From NCBI GenBank assembly GCA_963576475.1, contig OY754981.1:1-64000 (forward strand): 64,000 nucleotides of DNA, written 5' to 3'. Below are positions 1 to 51,715 of the stretch, piece after piece (position 1 is the stretch's first letter; every line of letters starts with the position of its first letter). Origin of the DNA: Molanna angustata. Lineage: Eukaryota; Arthropoda; Insecta; Trichoptera; Molannidae. The notes below the pieces were generated by a model. It made no database searches, was not told where the DNA came from, and worked only from the letters and a program-made list of their open reading frames with translations. The translations under genes and the position numbers were made by a program.

Positions 1-648
1 TAAACAAAAGTTTTTCCAATGAAGAAAATTCTGACAGATCATGGTGGCTTTTTTTCTGGTGGTTGGAGCTGTCAGATTCGAGGTGAAAAATATGTATTTT
101 TCCTGTTTTATAGAAATTGTTATATAAAAGTAAGCGTATAAAAATAGCGCAACGTTATAAGTGTCTGGACGATTGAAGACTGATGTAGGTCTTTTCTTTT
201 TTCTTCGTTCCTGGTTTTGCCTTATTGGCCAATGGCACTCGTATGTATTTGTGGGAATCGCCGAGTGACCGAAGTTGTTGCTGGTAATCCTAGCCAGCCT
301 GACGAGACTTGGTGAGTCGAAATGTCAAAGACACATACTATATGTATGGAAATTGTTATAAGATACTTTTTGTGATAAAATTGTGTAATTTTGTACATTT
401 GTTTAAAGACAGAATTAAATTGAAATTACTATTTGCAATTGTTTGATTGTGCAATGATACCTTCTGATATTTGAATAAAGAATAATTAATATGGGCACGG
501 CATGACGGAGGGATCCAAGGACATCACGGCCTACTAATCAATTAACAAATTATTTTAATTCCCTGAAGGGCTTGGGTTCAGACCAGAGAACCCACCCGAT
601 ATCTGTGCCAAAGACTTTTCATATTTATGTGCAAGTCGGCGTATAACA
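1..648 (+). repeat. Left LTR of Ty3/gypsy element (5' end cut by window)
   Basis: This matches 6525-7172 base for base when read by eye. The right LTR is 772 bp, so the first 124 bp of this copy lie outside the window. It ends in ATAACA, the complement of the TGTTAT that opens the right LTR. A TATA-like TATATAAAAG lies near 121-130 and an AATAAA near 475-480, suiting a U3-R-U5 layout with its own promoter and polyadenylation signal. The promoter role is inferred. Confidence 0.93.
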
Positions 649-782: not shown

Positions 783-3700
783 TTGTGCATTTTTTTGTGT
801 AGGTACTTTGTATTTAAAATAACTTTGTTACATCTTTTTTTCTATAAAATGGATTATGTCCGGGATTCTATGAGTGTGAAGATTCAGAACGTGGCCAAGT
901 GTACCAAAGAAGAATTATTTTGGGAGTTAAAAATGAGAAAAATAAAACCAGCTAAACACATTAGAGAAATGCGCGCTCAGGCTACCCGATTCAATGTAGC
1001 ATTGTCAGATTTTAAAGACGAATCAGATTCGGAGGAATTTATAAGAAAAGAAAAAAAGTCACGTGACGTGGTGAAATCTTGCTCGGTTAAAAGATGTGAT
1101 TGCGTTACGTATCCAGCAAACTTTCATACCTGGAATGTAACTTTTGCCGGAAAAACGGATCCGCGTGAATTTGTTGTAAGATTGAAAGAATTGTCTAAGT
1201 CGCGGGGTATATCTTTAGATAGGGTAGTTCAGGGTTTACCCGAACTTTTGACTGAATCAGCATTGTGTTGGTTCAGATCAATCAATTCTGATCGTGATTC
1301 TTCTTTATCGTGGGATAATTTTGAGGAGTTGTTTTTTTCTCATTTTGGCAACGAGCAAGACGAGTTTAGGAAGAAGTTAGAAATTTATAATTCAAAACAA
1401 TTAACACTGGAATCGGGAACAGATTTTGTGTTACGAAATATGTATGTTAACAGGTCATTGAATGATCAATTGGCTGAAAAAGAATTTTTAAATTGTATAA
1501 AAAGAGGGCTCCATTCAAAATATGCCCCAATATTAGCGATTCAAAATTTTGAATCTGTAGAATCATTATTAAAATGTCTTAAGCAATTTGATATTTACAA
1601 CGTCCCGTTAGAAGCTCCTCAGATTGTAAGAGAAACTAAAAACACCATCAGTTATGCAGAACATAGACCCAGCACTCCATCACGTGAAATTGCGATACCT
1701 GCGTATAGAAACTACGATATTAAATGTTATTTTTGTAACAAAAGTGGACACATTCAGCGAAATTGTTTTTTGCGACAGCGAAGTTTACAGACGTCTAGCG
1801 ATAATCGTAGGCAACAACCTGCGATAGAGTTTGCATCGGAAAAAGAAAGGCATAACGCAATAGATTTACCTAGAGTGTCTTCTTTCCCAGAAATTCGTGA
1901 CATAAATGAGGATAGAAGGCCCAATGAGACATCTTGGGGTAGTAAGTCAAAGGAAAATGATAATTTATTATCAGTTCGTCGCGAATCAAAAGGATACAAT
2001 CAAGAACAGTCACTTTTAAGGAATAAAAGAAATTCAAAAAAACTTGTAAGCGGTCGGCCACCATCGGATATCTGTAAAAATGAATGGAAGAGCTGGCTGG
2101 AAATGGTTGAAAAATTTCAGAAAAATTTTAAAACACAAAAGTTAATAAATAATATTTGCAACATACCAAAGGGTGACGCGCGTCCTTATGTAAACTTTCA
2201 GATTCAGAACCAATATTTTACTGGTCTTCTTGACAGTGGCGCATCGGCCAATTGTATTAGTGAGGCAGTTTTTTGTAAATTTTTAAATAAATATTTTCCT
2301 CGCACAGATAATTCAGTAGAAATGTATTCGTTTAATCAGTTGGTTACGACCTCAAAAGGCTTGGCAGTCATGCCAGTTACATTTAAAGGTCGGATCGTAG
2401 AATTGGAGTTCCATATAGTTGATGGATTATTTGCTGATTTTTTGTTGGGCATTCCGTTTTGGCGCTATTTTGAAATAGCCTTGGAAGTTTTTAACTTGGC
2501 TCAGGTTGATGAGGAAACGGTCATCGATATGGGTTTTTTTGAGCCAAAAATAAGCGAGGATACTAAAGTCCCCACGATTCCGGATGTTTTGGAAGAACAA
2601 TCAGTTAATAAAAAGCTTACCATCATGCATACTATATGTATGGATATGTACCGTTTAATAAAGAACCGTGAGCCTTTTATTTCGTTGAAGAAAACGGACA
2701 AAACGTATTTATATCTAGATGAAATGATCACGAGGGCTATTCTTGAATTAGATCAAATTGACCTTGAAGGAAATGAAGATGTTAGAAATTATCGAAGATC
2801 CGCTGTGAAATGGTTGGAGGAAATTGCTTCTAAGTTGGAGAGCAAAACGACAGAAGTTGTTGTAGAACCAAAAGAGAAAACGACGGAAATTACTGATAAA
2901 ACTAATGTAACAAACTTCGTTGAATCTATGGGAAAGTCAAATGAAGAAAATCTACCTTCACCCGAAAAGAAGAGCGTTGATAGTCAAGAAAAAGAAACGG
3001 AAGCTGTTTTGATCAACCCAAGAGAGGAGTTTTCGCAAATTCACGTTTTATCTAATTTGGAGACTCTAAGTGTAGAACAGCGAGATGAATTATCAAAAGT
3101 ATACTCAATGTTTGAAGATATTTCATATGAAAAGAGAGGATTGGGATGTACAAATTTAGTGCAACATAACATCGTTACCGAGGGCCCTCCTATCAAACAG
3201 AGATACTATCCTCTTTCGCCCGTCCGGCAAGCTTTAGTGGAAAAAGAACTAGACGAAATGTTGGAATTGGGTGTTGTTAGACCCTCACGATCTGCATGGT
3301 CAAATCCTGTCATTATGGTTCCCAAACGCGATGGAACACTAAGATTATGTATTGACAGTCGAAAACTAAATGCAGTTACGAAGAAGGATTCTTATCCATT
3401 ACCTTATATAAACACGATTTTAGCCAATTTAGGGCGCGGGAAATACATTTCTTCAGTAGATTTATCAAAGGCATTTTGGCAGATTCCTTTGACTCCCGAG
3501 TCCTGCGAAAAGACAGCTTTCAGCATACAATCAAGGGGACTGTTTGAATTTGTTCGTCTTGCGTTTGGATTAACTTGCGCACCCCAGGAGCTTCAAAGAA
3601 CGATGGATATGTTGTTTGGACCTGAATTCAATGGGCAAGTATTCGTATACTTGGATGACCTGATCATTGTGTCAGAAAGTTTTGAAGAACACATGGATCT

Positions 3701-5738
3701 ATTAAAAAGTGTTGCTAATAAATTACGAGAAGCTGGGTTTACAGTGAATTTGAAAAAATCTGAATTTGTAAGAAAAGAACTTAGATATTTAGGTTACATA
3801 GTGGATGAAAAAGGTTTGAGGACGGATCCCGCTAAAATAGAAAGTATACAAAACTTCCCAACACCAAATAATTCAAAAGAACTAAAAGGTTTTTTGGGGC
3901 TATGCTCATATTACAGGAGATTTATCGAGAATTTTGCTGATTTAGCGGCACCTCTCACAAAATTAACTGGAAAAAGGGGTAACATTTCAAATTTCGTTTG
4001 GTCTTCCATAGCAGAGGATGCTTTTAATGGACTCAAAAAGGCTATGGTAACCGCTCCGGTCTTAGCTTCACCCAACTTTACAGAACCATTCATTATTCAT
4101 TGTGATGCATCGAGTTATGGAATTGGTGGCATACTCACACAGATATTGGAAGGATCTGAACATCCAATAGCATATTTCTCCCGTTCCTTGAAGAAACACG
4201 AAAAGAATTATGGCACAACTGAGAAAGAAATGTTAGCCGTAATTGAATCTGTAGAGCATTTTAGAGGCTACGTAGAAGGATCGGCTTTCACGATAGTCAC
4301 GGATCATTCTAGCCTCCGTTGGCTAACTACCTTGGAAAACCCTAGTGGACGATTGGCTAGGTGGGCGACCAGATTGTCGCAATTTAATTTTAATATAATA
4401 CACAGGAAAGGCTCTGAGCACGTGGCTCCAGACGCGCTCTCCCGGATACGGCCTGTTGAAATAGATGTTCTTGAAATAGATCCCTTTGTAAATGATGAGT
4501 GGTACCACATGATACGTCGAGGATGCAAAGAAAATCCGCAAAGATTTAAAAATTATCAAATTATGGAAGACCAGTTGTACCGATTTTGCAAAAGCGATTG
4601 CGCTTTGCTAGAACCCTATCAATGGAAACAAGTTATACCACAACCACTTCGCAACGAACTTATTTTCCGAATACATGAATCTGAAACATCCTGCCATCCT
4701 GGCGTATTTAAAACAGTCAAAAAGTTACAGAAAACTTATTTCTGGCCAGGTATGTATAGAGATGTTAAACGAGTGGTTGGTAGATGCAAAGTTTGCAAGG
4801 CATATAAACATTCTACTTCTGCGCCATTGGGACTAATGTCCAATCCAAAATTGGTAGATAGGCCAATGAAGATGTTAAGCATAGATCTAATAGGACCATT
4901 ACCGCGAAGTTATTCTGGACATGTTTTCATCCTAAGTTGCGTAGACGTGTTTTCTAAATATGTATGGGCATTTTCGTTACGCAAGGCCACTGCAGCCGCT
5001 GTAGTAAAATGTTTGGAGCAAGAAATATTTTTGCCATGGGGTGTGCCAAAAGTGATAGTATCTGATAATGGAAAGCAATTCGTTTCCAAAGAATACCGGT
5101 CTTTATTGAAAAAGTATGATGTGCCTGTAACATTTTTAAATCCTTACTATCATCCACAGAATAATGTAGTAGAGAGTTTTAATAAGACTATAGAGACTAT
5201 GTTGGCCATTAAAATTAATGAGGATCAACGAAACTGGACCAAGAATTTGAGAGCGGTCACAAGCGCGATGAATAATATGGTAAATGTTACCACTAATTAC
5301 TCACCTTATTTCTTGATGCACGGTAGAGAACACGTAATGAACGGATCGTTGCATAGAGACACTGTTAATGAAAATAGTGAACCCGAGAGCAATATTAAAG
5401 AAACTTCTAGAAAACCATATGCAGGAAAACTTAAAGAACTAGCACAAATTTATGATGAGGTGCAGGACCAGCTTCTTTTATCTTTTCAGAACTCGTCAAA
5501 GCAATACAACTTAAGAAGAAAACATGTAGTATACCAGGTAGGAGACAAAGTATGGAGACGAAATCATTGTCAATCTGACGCCTTAAAGTATTTCTCTCAT
5601 AAATTAGCACCACGGTTCGTCCAAAATGTAATTGTGGAAAAGAAATCTGATGTAGTTTATGTACTTAGTGATATGGACGGAAAGATATCGGGCAGTTATC
5701 ATGTCAAAGATTTGATCAAAATAGAATCACAAGACTAG
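783..5738 (+). CDS. gag-pol: Gag-Pol polyprotein of Ty3/gypsy retrotransposon with an internal BAG-like domain
   Basis: A single uninterrupted frame of 1,651 codons. The first ATG (783) gives a hydrophobic leader unlike Gag; the ATG at 849 (residue 23) is the more likely start. Order: capsid-like Gag (about 110-280); CCHC zinc knuckle with C315, C318, H323 and C328; aspartic protease with D484 in LLDSGAS; an extra acidic/helical region (about 570-780) holding a BAG-like domain (608-688); reverse transcriptase with D893 and YLDD (D958, D959); RNase H with D1108, E1149 and D1174; integrase with an HHCC zinc finger and the triad D1368, D1428, E1464 (35 residues between the last two); and a basic C-terminal module. 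No Gag/Pol frameshift and no envelope-like frame. Every catalytic motif is intact, so it may be competent to move. Family knowledge gives replication through an RNA intermediate in cytoplasmic particles. Confidence 0.95.
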   Translation: MCIFLCRYFVFKITLLHLFFYKMDYVRDSMSVKIQNVAKCTKEELFWELKMRKIKPAKHIREMRAQATRFNVALSDFKDESDSEEFIRKEKKSRDVVKSCSVKRCDCVTYPANFHTWNVTFAGKTDPREFVVRLKELSKSRGISLDRVVQGLPELLTESALCWFRSINSDRDSSLSWDNFEELFFSHFGNEQDEFRKKLEIYNSKQLTLESGTDFVLRNMYVNRSLNDQLAEKEFLNCIKRGLHSKYAPILAIQNFESVESLLKCLKQFDIYNVPLEAPQIVRETKNTISYAEHRPSTPSREIAIPAYRNYDIKCYFCNKSGHIQRNCFLRQRSLQTSSDNRRQQPAIEFASEKERHNAIDLPRVSSFPEIRDINEDRRPNETSWGSKSKENDNLLSVRRESKGYNQEQSLLRNKRNSKKLVSGRPPSDICKNEWKSWLEMVEKFQKNFKTQKLINNICNIPKGDARPYVNFQIQNQYFTGLLDSGASANCISEAVFCKFLNKYFPRTDNSVEMYSFNQLVTTSKGLAVMPVTFKGRIVELEFHIVDGLFADFLLGIPFWRYFEIALEVFNLAQVDEETVIDMGFFEPKISEDTKVPTIPDVLEEQSVNKKLTIMHTICMDMYRLIKNREPFISLKKTDKTYLYLDEMITRAILELDQIDLEGNEDVRNYRRSAVKWLEEIASKLESKTTEVVVEPKEKTTEITDKTNVTNFVESMGKSNEENLPSPEKKSVDSQEKETEAVLINPREEFSQIHVLSNLETLSVEQRDELSKVYSMFEDISYEKRGLGCTNLVQHNIVTEGPPIKQRYYPLSPVRQALVEKELDEMLELGVVRPSRSAWSNPVIMVPKRDGTLRLCIDSRKLNAVTKKDSYPLPYINTILANLGRGKYISSVDLSKAFWQIPLTPESCEKTAFSIQSRGLFEFVRLAFGLTCAPQELQRTMDMLFGPEFNGQVFVYLDDLIIVSESFEEHMDLLKSVANKLREAGFTVNLKKSEFVRKELRYLGYIVDEKGLRTDPAKIESIQNFPTPNNSKELKGFLGLCSYYRRFIENFADLAAPLTKLTGKRGNISNFVWSSIAEDAFNGLKKAMVTAPVLASPNFTEPFIIHCDASSYGIGGILTQILEGSEHPIAYFSRSLKKHEKNYGTTEKEMLAVIESVEHFRGYVEGSAFTIVTDHSSLRWLTTLENPSGRLARWATRLSQFNFNIIHRKGSEHVAPDALSRIRPVEIDVLEIDPFVNDEWYHMIRRGCKENPQRFKNYQIMEDQLYRFCKSDCALLEPYQWKQVIPQPLRNELIFRIHESETSCHPGVFKTVKKLQKTYFWPGMYRDVKRVVGRCKVCKAYKHSTSAPLGLMSNPKLVDRPMKMLSIDLIGPLPRSYSGHVFILSCVDVFSKYVWAFSLRKATAAAVVKCLEQEIFLPWGVPKVIVSDNGKQFVSKEYRSLLKKYDVPVTFLNPYYHPQNNVVESFNKTIETMLAIKINEDQRNWTKNLRAVTSAMNNMVNVTTNYSPYFLMHGREHVMNGSLHRDTVNENSEPESNIKETSRKPYAGKLKELAQIYDEVQDQLLLSFQNSSKQYNLRRKHVVYQVGDKVWRRNHCQSDALKYFSHKLAPRFVQNVIVEKKSDVVYVLSDMDGKISGSYHVKDLIKIESQD
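2604..2846 (+). other. BAG-like domain inside the Pol region
   Basis: Residues 608-688 of the polyprotein do not belong to any usual gypsy Pol domain. They read as the three-helix BAG fold of Hsp70 cochaperones (BAG3/starvin type): an N-terminal helix, then TDKTYLYLDEMITRAILELD (about 639-658), then QID and a helix with NEDVRNYRRSAVK. The aspartate of the LDQID stretch and the arginine pair near 672-673, which match BAG positions known to touch the Hsp70 ATPase domain, are present. The glutamine normally found a few residues later appears to be glutamate. A charged linker rich in E, K and T follows to about 780. Identification is from remembered family patterns, without a search. Confidence 0.8.
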
Positions 5739-6400
5739 AAAAGTAGGTGCCTAATACTTGCTATGATTTTGGCGAATTAATGATTTGGTTAAATAAAATG
5801 AGGACATTAATTTCTTTTTGGGTATTGTATTATGACGTCATAAAGTTAGATTTAGGAGAAATTATAATGAATCCTTGGAGTGTTCTGAATGTTCACATCT
5901 CAACAGTGAGAAGCTTGTAAAAGTACCTATTCTGTGTAAAATCGTATTGCTCATATTTGAGGTGTAAATAATTTTTGTGTTGTGAATAATTTTTGAGTTG
6001 TAATTAAGAACGTTTATTGGAAATTATATTTGTATTGTGTTTAATTGATAAATTTATTATGTTAAATGTGTAAGTTGTTGATTTTTATTGCTGAATTAAA
6101 ATGTTTATTGATAAGAGTTCTATGTAAAATATTTGTCTTGTTATGTTAGGTTATATTTTGTGTAAGCTTCATTTAATTGAATTATGTTGAATGTGTAAGT
6201 TGTTTATTTTTATTGCTGAATTTAAAATGTTTATTGATAAGAGTTCTATGTTAAATATTTGTCTTGTTATGTAAGGTTATATTTTGTGTAAGCTTCAATT
6301 AATGGGGTGACCATAAATTTTTAGGAATGGGGTGACCCTAATAAAAATTAAAATATTTCTGTTGATAAAATTTTAATTTTTCTGTGACGAGGGAGGTAAA
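5739..6400 (+). other. 3' untranslated region of the gypsy element
   Basis: No further open frame, so no envelope gene. It contains a perfect CRE-like palindrome (TTATGACGTCATAA, near 5830), a roughly 122-bp tandem duplication (6057-6303) and a polypurine stretch (GACGAGGGAGGTAAA, 6386-6400) directly before the right LTR. The stretch is the expected plus-strand primer. Confidence 0.8.
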
Positions 6401-7418
<1,018 letters not shown>

Positions 7419-15630: not shown

Positions 15631-15849
15631 CCGAATTAACGAAAATTAACTGTCCGAAGATTAACGAAATTCAATAAGTAGGTATCCTATTTTATAAAAA
15701 ATCCATTTACCATTCTGAAGATGCCCGGCATTGAGCGATACCGGTGAATGGGAGTCGCGTTTATAGACTTAATAAAATAGAACATAAAATTATATATTAT
15801 GTAATATTTTTGTATATTCAATGTGATTATGGTGTTCTATCCCACAATA

Positions 15850-17135
15850 CTTATTATACATATTATGTATGTACATGCTCTCTTATTATACATATTATGT
15901 ATGTACATGCTCTCTTATTATACATATTATGTATGTACATGCTCTCTTATTATACATATTATGTATGTACATGCTCTCTTATTATACATATTATGTATGT
16001 ACATGCTCTCTTATTATACATATTATGTATGTACATGCTATCTTATTATACATATTATGTATGTACATGCTCTCTTATTATACATATTATGTATGTACAT
16101 GCTCTCTTATTATACATATTATGTATGTACATGCTATCTTATTATACATATTATGTATATACATGCTCTCTTATTATACATATTATGTATGTACATGCTC
16201 TCTTATTATACATATTATGTATGTACATGCTCTCTTATTATACATATTATGTATGTACATGCTCTCTTATTATACATATTATGTATGTACATGCTCTCTT
16301 ATTATACATATTATGTATGTACATGCTCTCTTATTATACATATTATGTATGTACATGCTCTCTTATTATACATATTATGTATGTACATGCTATCTTATTA
16401 TACATATTATGTATGTACATGCTCTCTTATTATACATATTATGTATGTACATGCTCTCTTATTATACATATTATGTATGTACATGCTATCTTATTATACA
16501 TATTATGTATATACATGCTCTCTTATTATACATATTATGTATGTACATGCTCTCTTATTATACATATTATGTATGTACATGCTATCTTATTATGCATATT
16601 ATGTATGTATATGCTCTCTTATTATACATATTATGTATGTTCATGCTCTCTTATTATACATATTATGTATGTACATGCTCTCTTATTATACATATTATGT
16701 ATGTACATGCTCTCTTATTATACATATTATGTATGTACATGCTCTCTTATTATACATATTATGTATGTACATGCTCTCTTATTATACATATTATATATGT
16801 ACATGCTATCTTATTATACATATTACGTATGTACATGCTCTCTTATTATACATATTATGTTTGTACATGCTCTCTTATTATACATATTATGTATGTACAT
16901 GCTCTCTTATTATACATATTATGTATGTACATGCTATCTTATTATACATATTATGTATGTACATGCTCTCTTATTATACATATTATGTATGTACATGCTC
17001 TCTTATTATACATATTATGTATGTACATGCTCTCTTATTATACATATTATGTATTTACATGCTATCTTATTATACATATTATGTATGTACATGCTCTCTT
17101 ATTATACATATTATGTATGTACATGCTCTCTTATT
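15850..17135. repeat. 32-bp satellite, about 40 copies
   Basis: The unit is 32 bp (contains CATATTATGTATGTACATGC then TCTCTTATTATA). Most copies are identical; the commonest variant has CTATCTT for CTCTCTT. Three units make 96 bp, and none of the three plus-strand frames contains a stop, so three overlapping frames of 450-500 codons appear. These are artefacts of the repeat. It lies in intron 1 of the receptor gene. Confidence 0.97.
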
Positions 17136-17260
17136 ATTCTTACTTCGTATGTTCCCATCTTTCAAAATCTCATTTATATAATCATGCCAACTCCTTTTCG
17201 GCCTTCCCCTACATCTCTATCCACTATTTTTAGATTTGTATAAAACCTTTACTTTCTTTG
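17136..17260 (-). mobile_element. RTE-like LINE fragment (C-terminal coding)
   Basis: The minus strand encodes a stretch like GRP.RSWHDYINEILKDGNI, the C-terminal signature of the LINE also at 19.6, 39.5 and 54.6 kb. It abuts the 32-bp satellite directly. Confidence 0.75.
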
Positions 17261-38649: not shown

Positions 38650-39930
38650 TTAGGATATTGAAGTGTGAAGGATATTAGGATATTAGATCAAAAGTTACGA
38701 AAGGTGACTGAAAACAAGGCATGGGATGCACAAGGAGCGTTTGTTAGGGGTATAGGATGCACTGACCAAATTTTCTCCCTTCGAATGGCAACTGAAAAGG
38801 TTCTGGCAAAAACCAGAAGCTTTTCTGTGCTTTCATTGACCTGGAAAAGGCCTATGCGTGCTATCAGTGTACGGAGTGGAAGGTATGTTGGTAGGAGCAA
38901 ATGCATCTCTTTATGAGGGTAGCCAGGCCTGTGTGAGGGTTAATAACTCACTCACAGAATGGTTCCCCATCAACAAGGGAGTACGACAGGGTTGCGTCTT
39001 ATCACTGTGGCTTTTCAATTTGTACATTGACTACTGTGTAAAATAACTGAAGAACGTAAACATCGGTTTGAAGCTGGAAGGGGTCAATGTATGCAAATGA
39101 CAAAGTATTAATGGCAGAAAATGTGAAATATCTAGAGCGCTTGGTAAAACCGCTATTCAAGGGATGCATCCAAAATGGACTGAGAATGAATGGAGCTAAG
39201 TCTAAAGTAATGGTAATAGAAAAAGACGAAAAAAGTACAGAATGCGAAATACGAGTGAATAATGAATTACTAGAACAAGTGGATGAATATTTGTATCTAG
39301 GAAGTATGTTTCAGCGTGATGGAAGACTGGAAAAGTATATAGAAAGAAGGGTAACGGCAGCAAATAGGGTGAACGGTGCATTAAGAACAATAATGGCCGA
39401 CCCAATTATCTCAAGGCCAGCAAAGCTCGCTGTGCACAATGCAATAGTCGTACCAACATTAATGTATGCAAGTGAGACATGGACATAACAGAAGACGCAT
39501 GAAAGTAAAATTAACGCTGTGGAAATGAGGTCCCTAAGACGAATGTGTGGTAGAAAGATCTATGATTGGATAAGGAATGTGGACATCAGACGAGAATGCA
39601 AGATTGAAAGAGATATTGTGAGTAGAATGAAAGTAAATACACTACGATGGTTCGGACATGTGGAGCGAATGAACGAAGAGCGCCTGACAAAGAAAGTATA
39701 CAATGCTGAAAAGAGTGGAATGAGATGTCGTGGCCGCCCGAGAAAGAGCTGGCATGATCATATAAATGAGATTTTAAAAGATGGTAATATACGAAGTCAG
39801 AATAATAGGAGAGCATGTATGACGCGATGCATGGATCTAAATGAGGCAAAACATGTAAGTCAAGATAGAGGTGTCTGGCGTTCGGTCCTCTCTGCCTACC
39901 CCAAGTAGGGATACGGCGTGATGGTATGGT
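38650..39930 (+). mobile_element. RTE-like LINE, longest copy, frameshifted
   Basis: The coding sequence is spread over several frames. 38665-38916 has reverse-transcriptase text (KAWDAQGAFVRGIGCTDQIF). 38858-39046 has GVRQGCVLSLWLFNLYIDYC. 39087-39488 starts MYANDK in place of the YADD box and continues to LMYASETWT, and 39519-39908 has the C-terminal LRWFGHVERMNEERLTKKVY and GRPRKSWHDHINEILKDG. The tail is CTCTCTGCCTACCCCAAGTA..GCGTGATGGTATG. At least three frame breaks and a lost 5' half make it inactive. Clade assignment (RTE-like) is from remembered insect elements. Intron 7. Confidence 0.85.
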
Positions 39931-48117: not shown

Positions 48118-51100
48118 TTTTTTTTTTTTTTTTTAACATGTTTATTTTGGGAGAAGGTGAGTTTGCTCCCCCCCAACCCATCCTCTGGGATTGGAAAGTA
48201 AACCCTGCCTTCGACATGGGGTCAGTATACTATACTGGTTTACCAAGCCACTGAATTTATGGTCCCCTAAAATATCTCGCCATATTCGGGGTCCTTTGCT
48301 TTGGTGCCCAGGTGGGCACTTGTGTTGGAGTTGATCAACGGCCTATCTTGATGATGTCATCCCGGCCGCTGCGCGGCGGGTCTGGTTGGAGGTGTGAGCC
48401 GAGGGAGATCTGTGTGAAACGGTTCGTCGCTGGCCGGCCGCCGAATAGTACAGGGGCCCGACCTAAGCTAACGACTACGGGTTGGCTGCCCTATCAGTCG
48501 GCGCATAATCTCGCTGCAATCGTTGTGCCGGATCGTGACCGGACGAGGTCCCAGCAGTTATATGCGGGGGGCACCAGGCGTCCTCCACGGCCATATCCTC
48601 CCTCCTTCAACCTAGCAGCGCAGCTGCCGGAACAAATGTCCTTGAAAAGGGCTTCTGATCTCCTCATTTCACAATGCCACCCCCCCCCCACAAAACCTTC
48701 ATCATGACAGATAAACCCAATAATAATGTTTATACAGCGACAACCAAGACTGCATACCCTCGCACCATTTGTGAACTGTTGGTAGACTTCGCTAACATCA
48801 GAGGTATCCACAGTAATTTAAATTCTGTTCACCATTACTTGCAATCTCAAAAACCACACCTGCTCTTTCTCACGGAAACACAAATTCAAGATCCACCCGA
48901 CACAAGTTACCTCAACTGCCCAGGGTACATACTCGAAAGCATGTTTGTGCCCAAAGGAGGCTTGTGCCTCTACAGCCGCGAAGACATCAACTGTGTCAGA
49001 TTGAAGGAATTCGAGAACCCCGCCTTCAATGTTATGTGGGTCCGTTTAAAATCTAACAAATTCATAAAAATTTATGCTTGTATATACCGATCTCCAAATA
49101 TGAGTGATTATGATTCTTCCGAGTTTTTCAAATACTTAGGAGAAACCATTGACAGTCTTCTGTCTCGCTACCCGTCGGCAGAATTTTCGGTTCTCGGCGA
49201 TTTCAATGTCCATCACTCCGATTGGCTGAAATCGGGAACTACCGATTCGGCTGGCCGCATGACGGAATCCTTTGCTTTGTGTCATAACCTGGAGCAACTT
49301 GTTCAAGAGCCAACTCGCATCCCTGATGTCTCTGGGCATCGTTCCAATCTGCTTGATCTTTTTATGACTACCTCGCCAACGGGATACACACTGAAAGTCA
49401 CAGCCCCACTGGGCTCTTCAGACAATTGCCTTGTGCAAACGGCCATCCACTTCATCCCGGACCTTCCACCCGAAAAACCTAAAAGGAAAATTTGGCAATA
49501 TAAGTCAGCAGATTGGAATGCACTGCGAATACACTTTCGCGACTTTCCTTGGAATGAAGTCTGTTTTAGAACCAAAGACCCTTCTATCTGTGCGCGTGAG
49601 ATAGGGGATGTCATCACTTCTGCTATGGATGGCTATATTCCCTCCTCCCTCAAAACCTGCGGACCAGGCACAAAACCTTGGTTTGATTCCAAATGCCGAG
49701 AAGCAGTCACGCGTAAAAATCTGGCTTTCAAAACATTTCAAAAACTTCAATCCCCGTCAAACAAGAAAGCATACAACAAGATGACAAAGGATTGTAAAAA
49801 AACCATTAATCAGGCTAAAAAACTCCATGACCAACATATAAGTCAAAAACTCTCCTCATGCCCTAACGGTAGCCGAAGATTCTGATCATTGTCAACCTCC
49901 ATAGGTCAGAACTTTTGCACATCTTCATTTCCACCTTTAACGAACCATGACGGATCCATTGATAACTCTGCCACCGACAAAGCTAATCTTCTCGGTAAAT
50001 TATTTGCAGATAACTCAACCCTTGACGACGGAGGAAAAGCTCCTCAACCAGTTCCACATTGTGGTTTTAAAATGAAAGAAGTAAGGATTAACTTCTCTGA
50101 GGTTTTACTCGCCATCCGAGGGTTGGATGTTAACAAAGCTAATGGACCAGATGGAATTCCCGTTCTTGTGTTAAAAAAATGCTCCGCCGAACTAGCCCCA
50201 GTTCTCACTAAACTCTTCAAACTCTCGTTTAAAACTGGTATTGTCCCATGTGACTGGAAAAAAGCGGTCATCCACCCAATTCCCAAAAAAGGTGATCGCT
50301 CCAACCCATCTAACTACCGACCCATCGCTATTACTTCTGTACTCTCCAAAATAATGGAAAGGGTACTAAGCACCAAGTTGATCACATACCTCGAAGCAAA
50401 CAAAATTTTAAGCGACCGCCAATATGGATTTCGTGGAAATCGATCTTGTGGCGATCTACTCGCGTATGTGACATCCGTTTGGGGTCAAGTTATGGAACGC
50501 TTTGGAGAAGCTCAAACTGTCGCCCTTGACATCTCTAAAGCTTTCGACCGGGTTTGGCACCGAGGTCTCTTAATGAAACTCCCTTCTTATGGACTACCCC
50601 AGTCTCTGTGTACTTGGATTGCGAATTTTTTAAAAGATCGCGAAGTCATAACTGTAGTGGACGGTTGCTCTTCTTCTCCCCATTCCATTAATGCGGGAGT
50701 TCCTCAAGGGTCCATTCTATCTCCAACCCTATTCCTCCTACATATTAATGACTTGCTCTTACGCGCCCCCATCCACTGTTACGCTGATGACAGCACAGTC
50801 CATGACAATTTCTCTTTTGACAAACCTCCTAAACAGAGTGAAATATCAGAAGCCCGGAAAGACCTTCATCAAAAAATAAATAGCTACCTCCACTCAATCA
50901 ATACCTGGGGTGAAAGTAATCTTGTTTCATTTAACGTCTCAAAAACCCAAGCCTGTCTAATTTCTGCGAAGAGAAACCCCAATGAATTGCAAGTTTCTTT
51001 CAACGGAAGCACCCTACCTAACAGCAGCTCTATCGACCTGCTTGGAGTATCTATAACGAACCAATTACACTACAAGGGCTCCATCGAAGCTAAGGTGAAA

Positions 51101-51715
51101 CTCGCCTCCAAAAAATTGAGCGTACTATATAGAGCGCGCAGATATTTTACTAAGACCCAGATCTGTATACTCTACAAAGCGCAAATACGTCCAATTATTG
51201 AATATGGCAGTCACCTCTGGAGTGGCGCCCCCCAATACCTACTGAATACCCTCGACGCTGTCCAAAGGCGTGCTATACGCTGATTGATGATCCATCACTG
51301 ACTGATGGATTGCAATCACTAGAACACAGACGCAGAGTCGGTATTTTAAGTTTATTCTATAGATACTACCACGGGAATTGCTCAGAAGAACTTGCATCTT
51401 TGGTCCCTCCTCCACCCACTCGCAACAGAGTCACTCGCTTCACTCAATCGCAGCATCCATTCACAGTGGACCTTCAACATATACGAACAAGTCGCTTCTC
51501 GAACTCCTTTATTAATACAGCAGCCCGACTGTGGAACGATCTTCCGAATTCTGTGTTTCCATCTTCGTACAACCCGGGTCTTTTTAAAATCCGAATTAAT
51601 AAACTCATTTCTAGATTGCAAACCCCTCCCAACGCTACGTAGTGCGCTTCTTCGGAAGAGTAAAATGGACCCAAATCCTAATAGCTGGCGTCCCCTACGT
51701 AGACTAGTTTAAAAA
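48118..51715 (+). mobile_element. Non-LTR retrotransposon (jockey/CR1-like LINE) in intron 11
   Basis: A GC-richer block holding endonuclease and reverse-transcriptase coding (below) and ending in AAAAAAAAA at about 51712. The 5' part (48140-48670) is GC-rich without a recognised protein. The T-run at 48118-48136 followed by AACATGTTTATTTTGGGAG looks like the poly-A end of another element in the opposite orientation, so the true 5' border is unclear. Confidence 0.85.
48674..51642 (+). pseudogene. LINE endonuclease/reverse transcriptase ORF2, broken
   Basis: Two long pieces share one frame: 48674-49885 (AP-type endonuclease: FLTETQ, GDFNVHHSDW, GSSDN) and 49889-51283 (reverse transcriptase: PIPKKGDRSNPSNYRPIAIT, DISKAFDRVWHRGLL, GVPQGSILSP, YADD at 50780-50791). 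They are parted by a single TGA at 49883. A frameshift near 51283 moves the C-terminal part (RLWNDLPNSVFPSS) to the frame of 51310-51642. With only two lesions the copy is fairly young but inactive. Motifs fit the jockey/CR1 group. The true start may lie upstream of 48674, and no separate ORF1 was recognised. Sense to the receptor gene. Confidence 0.9.

Follow-up and report, generated by a model that had tools for sequence, protein, structure and literature searches.

The 64,000-nucleotide stretch of Molanna angustata DNA analysed here (the window; positions 1-64000, the start of contig C17, OY754981.1) opens with a long terminal repeat (LTR) retrotransposon of the Ty3/gypsy type. This element carries a BAG domain within its polyprotein. 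A single frame, 783-5738, is open throughout, as the initial annotation had stated, and encodes 1651 amino acids with Gag fused to Pol. We scanned the frame against Pfam in seven pieces, some overlapping, that together covered all of it. The matches were, in order, Gag, CCHC, protease, BAG, reverse transcriptase (RT), RNase H, H2C2 and integrase. Two traits identify the element as Ty3/gypsy: protease, RT, RNase H and integrase occur in that order, and TG...CA LTRs are accompanied by a 4-bp target-site duplication (7 of 10 copies). Within the frame, the earliest ATG lies at 849; starting there would lower protein numbers by 22. The features are as follows.

1..648, + strand: 5' LTR, its first 124 bases lost at the contig start; 648/648 bases identical to 6525-7172
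1242..1514, + strand: Gag (Retrotrans_gag, PF03732, 25.7 bits, cut-off 24.1)
1719..1766, + strand: CCHC zinc knuckle (PF00098, 21.4 bits, cut-off 20.8)
2178..2450, + strand: aspartic protease with an LLDSGA stretch (PF00077, 24.0 bits on 2178-2267, cut-off 20.7; PF13975 under cut-off on 2190-2450)
2523..3026, + strand: insertion relative to sister elements, about 168 residues (nine in-frame sister copies, 11 sister loci, 112 of 120 database relatives)
2577..2843, + strand: BAG domain (PF02179 at 2679-2846 in the frame scan and 2676-2846 in the genome scan; structure model; Foldseek)
2577-2666, 2700-2753 and 2775-2843, + strand: predicted BAG helices (structure model)
2721..2819, + strand: predicted Hsp70-contact positions (codons 2721 E, 2751 D, 2793 R, equivalent to BAG3 R480, and 2817 E, at BAG3 Q488)
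2847..3026, + strand: charged, variable tail of the insertion (no Pfam match over cut-off beyond BAG; pi 0.0148 on 2853-3104, against 0.0037 for BAG)
3318..3803, + strand: RT (PF00078, two pieces)
3999..4385, + strand: RNase H (PF17919, PF17917)
4635..5150, + strand: integrase zinc-binding and core domains (PF17921, PF00665)
6401..7172, + strand: 3' LTR, TGTTAT...ATAACA, 772 bp (LTR comparison)

The initial annotation had proposed a BAG domain between protease and RT of a gypsy Gag-Pol, and this is confirmed. Profile PF02179 matched 2544-2900 with 55.0 bits (E 1.2e-14, cut-off 23.4), covering profile positions 20-78 of 78. A search of PDB sequences gave five hits with E < 0.001; these were BAG3 (3.1e-10), BAG4 (3.8e-10 and 4e-10) and BAG5 (8e-7 and 1.8e-5). 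The structure model, made without an alignment (pLDDT 74.5), is a three-helix bundle with helices at 12-41, 53-70 and 78-100. Its best Foldseek match was BAG4 1m62 (E 8.5e-4, TMt 0.72, rmsd 2.2). The top five matches were all BAG4, BAG3 or BAG5 entries, one with E < 0.001. Helix 1 falls outside the Pfam match and is backed by the BAG4 alignment and the model. We conclude that the segment is a genuine BAG domain of the short BAG3/BAG4 kind. An artefact or chance match is ruled out by the 55 bits together with 44 element copies having the match on 20 contigs, and a host gene fused to the element by the LTRs that flank the frame. No WW domain, a trait of BAG3/starvin, was matched at E <= 10 in the seven pieces with the HMMER filters applied. 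The polyprotein has a BAG domain but is not a BAG3 protein.

The domain lies within extra sequence at the protease-RT junction. For each of 11 sister loci in this genome, matches to protease and RT were apart in the query and close together in the locus; at L058 and L061 the protease match continues weakly into the RT stretch. Ten of these loci were aligned, L063 (RT match in two pieces) being left out. The row for L062, frame-shifted between protease and RT, was unusable. In the remaining nine, which are in frame, protease leads into RT and nothing corresponds to the insert. We also compared 120 listed database relatives, from 1411 passing E 1e-20. Spacing between protease and RT was 8-49 residues (median 16) in the 112 of 120 that could be placed, against 178 in the element. 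The short spacing in both groups indicates that about 168 residues were inserted in the BAG element, with edges uncertain by about 10 residues.

Neither group carries BAG. PF02179 was absent from the precomputed domains of the 120 listed relatives, and phmmer matched the BAG segment to none of them at E <= 10. Five sister pieces gave protease and RT matches in Pfam but no BAG. Hence, the claim that an ordinary gypsy Pol has no such domain holds for the sister elements examined and for the listed relatives. Both the sisters (51-60% RT identity) and the relatives (51-61% identical, including Parnassius and Plutella) share the protease-RT-RNase H-integrase order, and neither has a comparable protease-RT insert where examined. 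The RT frame is at most 1072 amino acids in the 104 listed sister rows, compared with 1651 for the BAG element and its fused Gag. One relative, P0086, is a gypsy-type Pol of 54% identity that is recorded as coming from the bacterium Pectobacterium brasiliense; this is probably arthropod contamination of that assembly.

Next to the window copy, the genome holds a whole family with the domain. In the 995-Mb genome (131 contigs), PF02179 gave 45 matches from 46 candidates: 44 element copies and one host gene (76.3 bits). None of the 45 contains a stop codon. All 44 element matches, the window among them, were assigned to the same family by DNA or translated comparison. A search with the RT piece found at least 43 same-family copies (87-100% identity) and at least 104 rows of other families (51-60%). 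It scored 147 of 3269 candidates, and sister copies are therefore undercounted. Of these 43 same-family RT copies, 42 had a BAG match within 3 kb. No BAG match lay within 10 kb of the 104 listed rows of other families. One BAG match, at C27:27847178, had no scored RT match within 3 kb. The lone candidate for a same-family copy that never had BAG, on C24, was rejected; it is a deletion copy in which the LTR side runs into mid-BAG.

The element had been judged young, and the LTRs support this. Among ten copies, seven LTR pairs are identical and two have one differing site. In the tenth, C26:301967, LTR matches were incomplete or rearranged in the fetched regions and the pair was not comparable; of the three copies outside the seven with a target duplication, this is one, and the other two were unmatched. 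The LTRs of the nine comparable copies are 91.6-100% identical to the window LTR, which suggests that several source lineages were recently active. We conclude that this is a young, multicopy and recently active family.

Residues expected to contact Hsp70 are largely retained. According to PMC8755836, BAG1 E212, D222, R237 and Q245 contact Hsc70. PMC6297355 reports that R480A abolishes BAG3-Hsp70 binding, and its P470 anchors the BAG3 numbering of our alignment. By spacing, we infer that the BAG1 contacts correspond to BAG3 456, 466, 480 and 488. The element keeps E456, D466 and R480 and has Glu at 488; hence, its contact residues read E, D, R, E. At 13 of 17 positions common to BAG3, BAG4 and the host gene the residue is kept, with L458, L462, A479 and Q488 changed to I, I, Y and E. 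The four contact codons have no variants among 41 sequences. An arginine pair that the initial annotation numbered 672/673 is, by its own numbering, residues 671/672.

The 41 sequences are the window and 40 of 41 pieces. A copy on C23, which has a 12-nt deletion, was excluded, and C52 and C9:15664506 lie outside the set. For other regions full ungapped pieces were used: 36 of 42 for protease, 40 of 41 for the segments on either side of BAG, and 38 of 40 for RT. Synonymous and nonsynonymous variants numbered 2 and 4 in BAG (240 nt), 7 and 16 in the tail, 3 and 7 before BAG, 9 and 12 in protease, and 19 and 6 in RT. Stop variants occurred once each in protease, tail and RT and not in BAG. Variant sites were rarer in BAG (6/240) than in the flanking insert (33/336; Fisher P 0.0006; nonsynonymous alone, P 0.004). 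The ratio pN/pS was 0.49 for BAG, 0.60 for the tail, 0.58 before BAG, 0.35 for protease and 0.09 for RT. The initial annotation had held that dN/dS near 1 in this segment would count against its proposal. The BAG value comes from six variants, and in so young a family (4 nonsynonymous and 2 synonymous BAG variants) the test has little power. BAG variation favours constraint without proving it, and related copies are not independent.

Several observations weigh against a domain selected for Hsp70 binding. The fourth contact residue is altered, from Q488 to E, and Tyr replaces A479, an alanine shared by BAG3, BAG4 and the host gene. The position of BAG3 D475 (window 2778) is Tyr instead of Asp in 17 of the 41 sequences; this Asp/Tyr split may mark two element subfamilies. 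Neither protease (P 0.07) nor RT (P 0.31) is significantly more variable than BAG, whose pN/pS, from those six variants, is near that of the tail and far from that of RT. Synonymous sites in BAG likewise show few variants (2/47 sites against 38/278, P 0.09). Hence, protein selection may not explain all of its low diversity.

The lone other BAG match found in the genome is the host gene, at L009 4344-5537 (BAG 71.7 bits), with no further domain over cut-off in that exon. Its best PDB sequence match was BAG3 (3.6e-12), followed by BAG4 and BAG5. It also has a HIPIFV stretch, which we take to resemble the IPV motif of BAG3. By these sequence likenesses, the host gene is BAG3-like. The host BAG exon (L009:4875-5300) also matches DUF2682 (PF10909, E 6.6e-4, under cut-off) over the BAG helices, and DUF2682 may be an unrecognised BAG relative. 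Over 53 positions, the element is identical to the host gene at 23 (43%), to BAG3 at 26 and to BAG4 at 25. The 43% identity rules out a recent copy of the host BAG3-like gene. Across 54 codons, dN between element and host gene was 0.51 and synonymous sites were saturated (pS 0.77). Hence, capture was either old or from another lineage. Of the proposed capture of a host BAG3/starvin-like exon, the BAG3/BAG4 kind stands, but the host gene is no closer than BAG3 or BAG4. The donor was a BAG3/BAG4-type gene, probably a BAG3-like one belonging to an ancestor of the hosts or to a related lineage.

Other features of the element and window are as follows. After the 5' LTR, at 652, lies TGGTGCTGTGAATACC, a putative primer-binding stretch. 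No frame of at least 100 amino acids occurs between 5738 and the 3' LTR that could be Env, a trait of errantiviruses. The non-coding stretch ahead of the 3' LTR contains a 123-nt tandem duplication (6056-6303, 95% identical). The contig starts within the element's 5' LTR; hence, the assembly breaks in this repeat. Further along, frames at 48674-51283 and 39087-39908 resemble, by eye, non-LTR endonuclease and reverse transcriptase. Three overlapping frames of about 450-500 amino acids at 15744-17243 belong to one repeated stretch and, by eye, are not a gene.

We think it probable, from the sequence comparisons above, that a gypsy element acquired, at its protease-RT junction, a BAG3/BAG4-type BAG domain together with a charged tail, and that the domain binds Hsc70/Hsp70 at the polyprotein or RT. 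The domain would act within Gag-Pol, or as an RT or protease extension after cleavage. We infer Hsp70 binding and function: by binding the host's Hsc70/Hsp70 ATPase domain and speeding ADP release, the BAG domain would keep Hsp70 at the polyprotein or RT and drive its cycle in place. The element would most likely gain in RT folding or activation, or in regulating how its particles assemble and disassemble. In duck hepatitis B virus, Hsp90 is required for the RT to bind its RNA signal (PMC7356129). Hence, reverse transcriptases can depend on chaperones.

The insert could instead be a passenger, captured once and tolerated as a spacer in a family too young for loss. Low family diversity, almost identical LTR pairs and the N:S ratio of BAG (4:2, against 6:19 for RT; Fisher P 0.067) fit such a history. 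It is nevertheless unlikely, given the strong profile match and the three of four contacts kept at 43% host identity after synonymous saturation, and given that variants are scarcer in BAG than in the flanking insert. The argument from host identity would be void if capture were recent and from an unsampled, diverged BAG gene. A three-helix module kept for protease/RT folding or spacing, with no Hsp70 binding, is improbable: the E, D and R contacts are kept and variant-free, and the 112 database relatives and 11 sister loci manage with no comparable insert. Hsc70/Hsp90 machinery loads Argonautes. A decoy that titrates or redirects Hsc70 from host defence (the loading of Argonaute/piRNA, or autophagy of Gag aggregates under BAG3 guidance) would have the same binding signature. 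We consider this improbable as well, since BAG sits in the Gag-Pol frame beside RT rather than in a separate protein, which better suits a local role.

The local cochaperone proposed here can be set beside known systems. With the short BAG domains of BAG3/starvin and BAG4 (SODD), the element shares the profile, the best PDB sequence and Foldseek matches, the helix 2-3 signature and the Arg480 equivalent. It differs from them in its position inside Gag-Pol, the lack of a WW match in any piece, and the changes of Q488 to E and A479 to Y. LTR elements with captured domains exist, with chromodomain and dUTPase as examples; neither is BAG, and the likeness is in the principle of an added domain. 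To our knowledge, hepadnavirus RT uses host chaperones with no domain of its own for them. It shares chaperone dependence, as in duck hepatitis B virus, whose RT relies on Hsp90 (PMC7356129). A literature search of titles and abstract openings, with subscription journals thinly covered, found no BAG-carrying retroelement. Tentatively, this may be the first described retroelement, within the literature searched, that encodes its own Hsp70 nucleotide-exchange domain beside RT and needs it for replication.

If so, the element would be an independent solution to a chaperone dependence that other reverse-transcribing agents meet by host factors alone. The family offers a clear example of a host-type cochaperone domain in a mobile element with recent activity. 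Whether, and at which step, a retrotransposon Gag-Pol needs Hsp70 becomes directly testable, because the domain is separable, a binding-breaking point change is known in BAG3 and sister elements lacking BAG are available in the same genome as controls. More broadly, host proteostasis genes can enter mobile elements.
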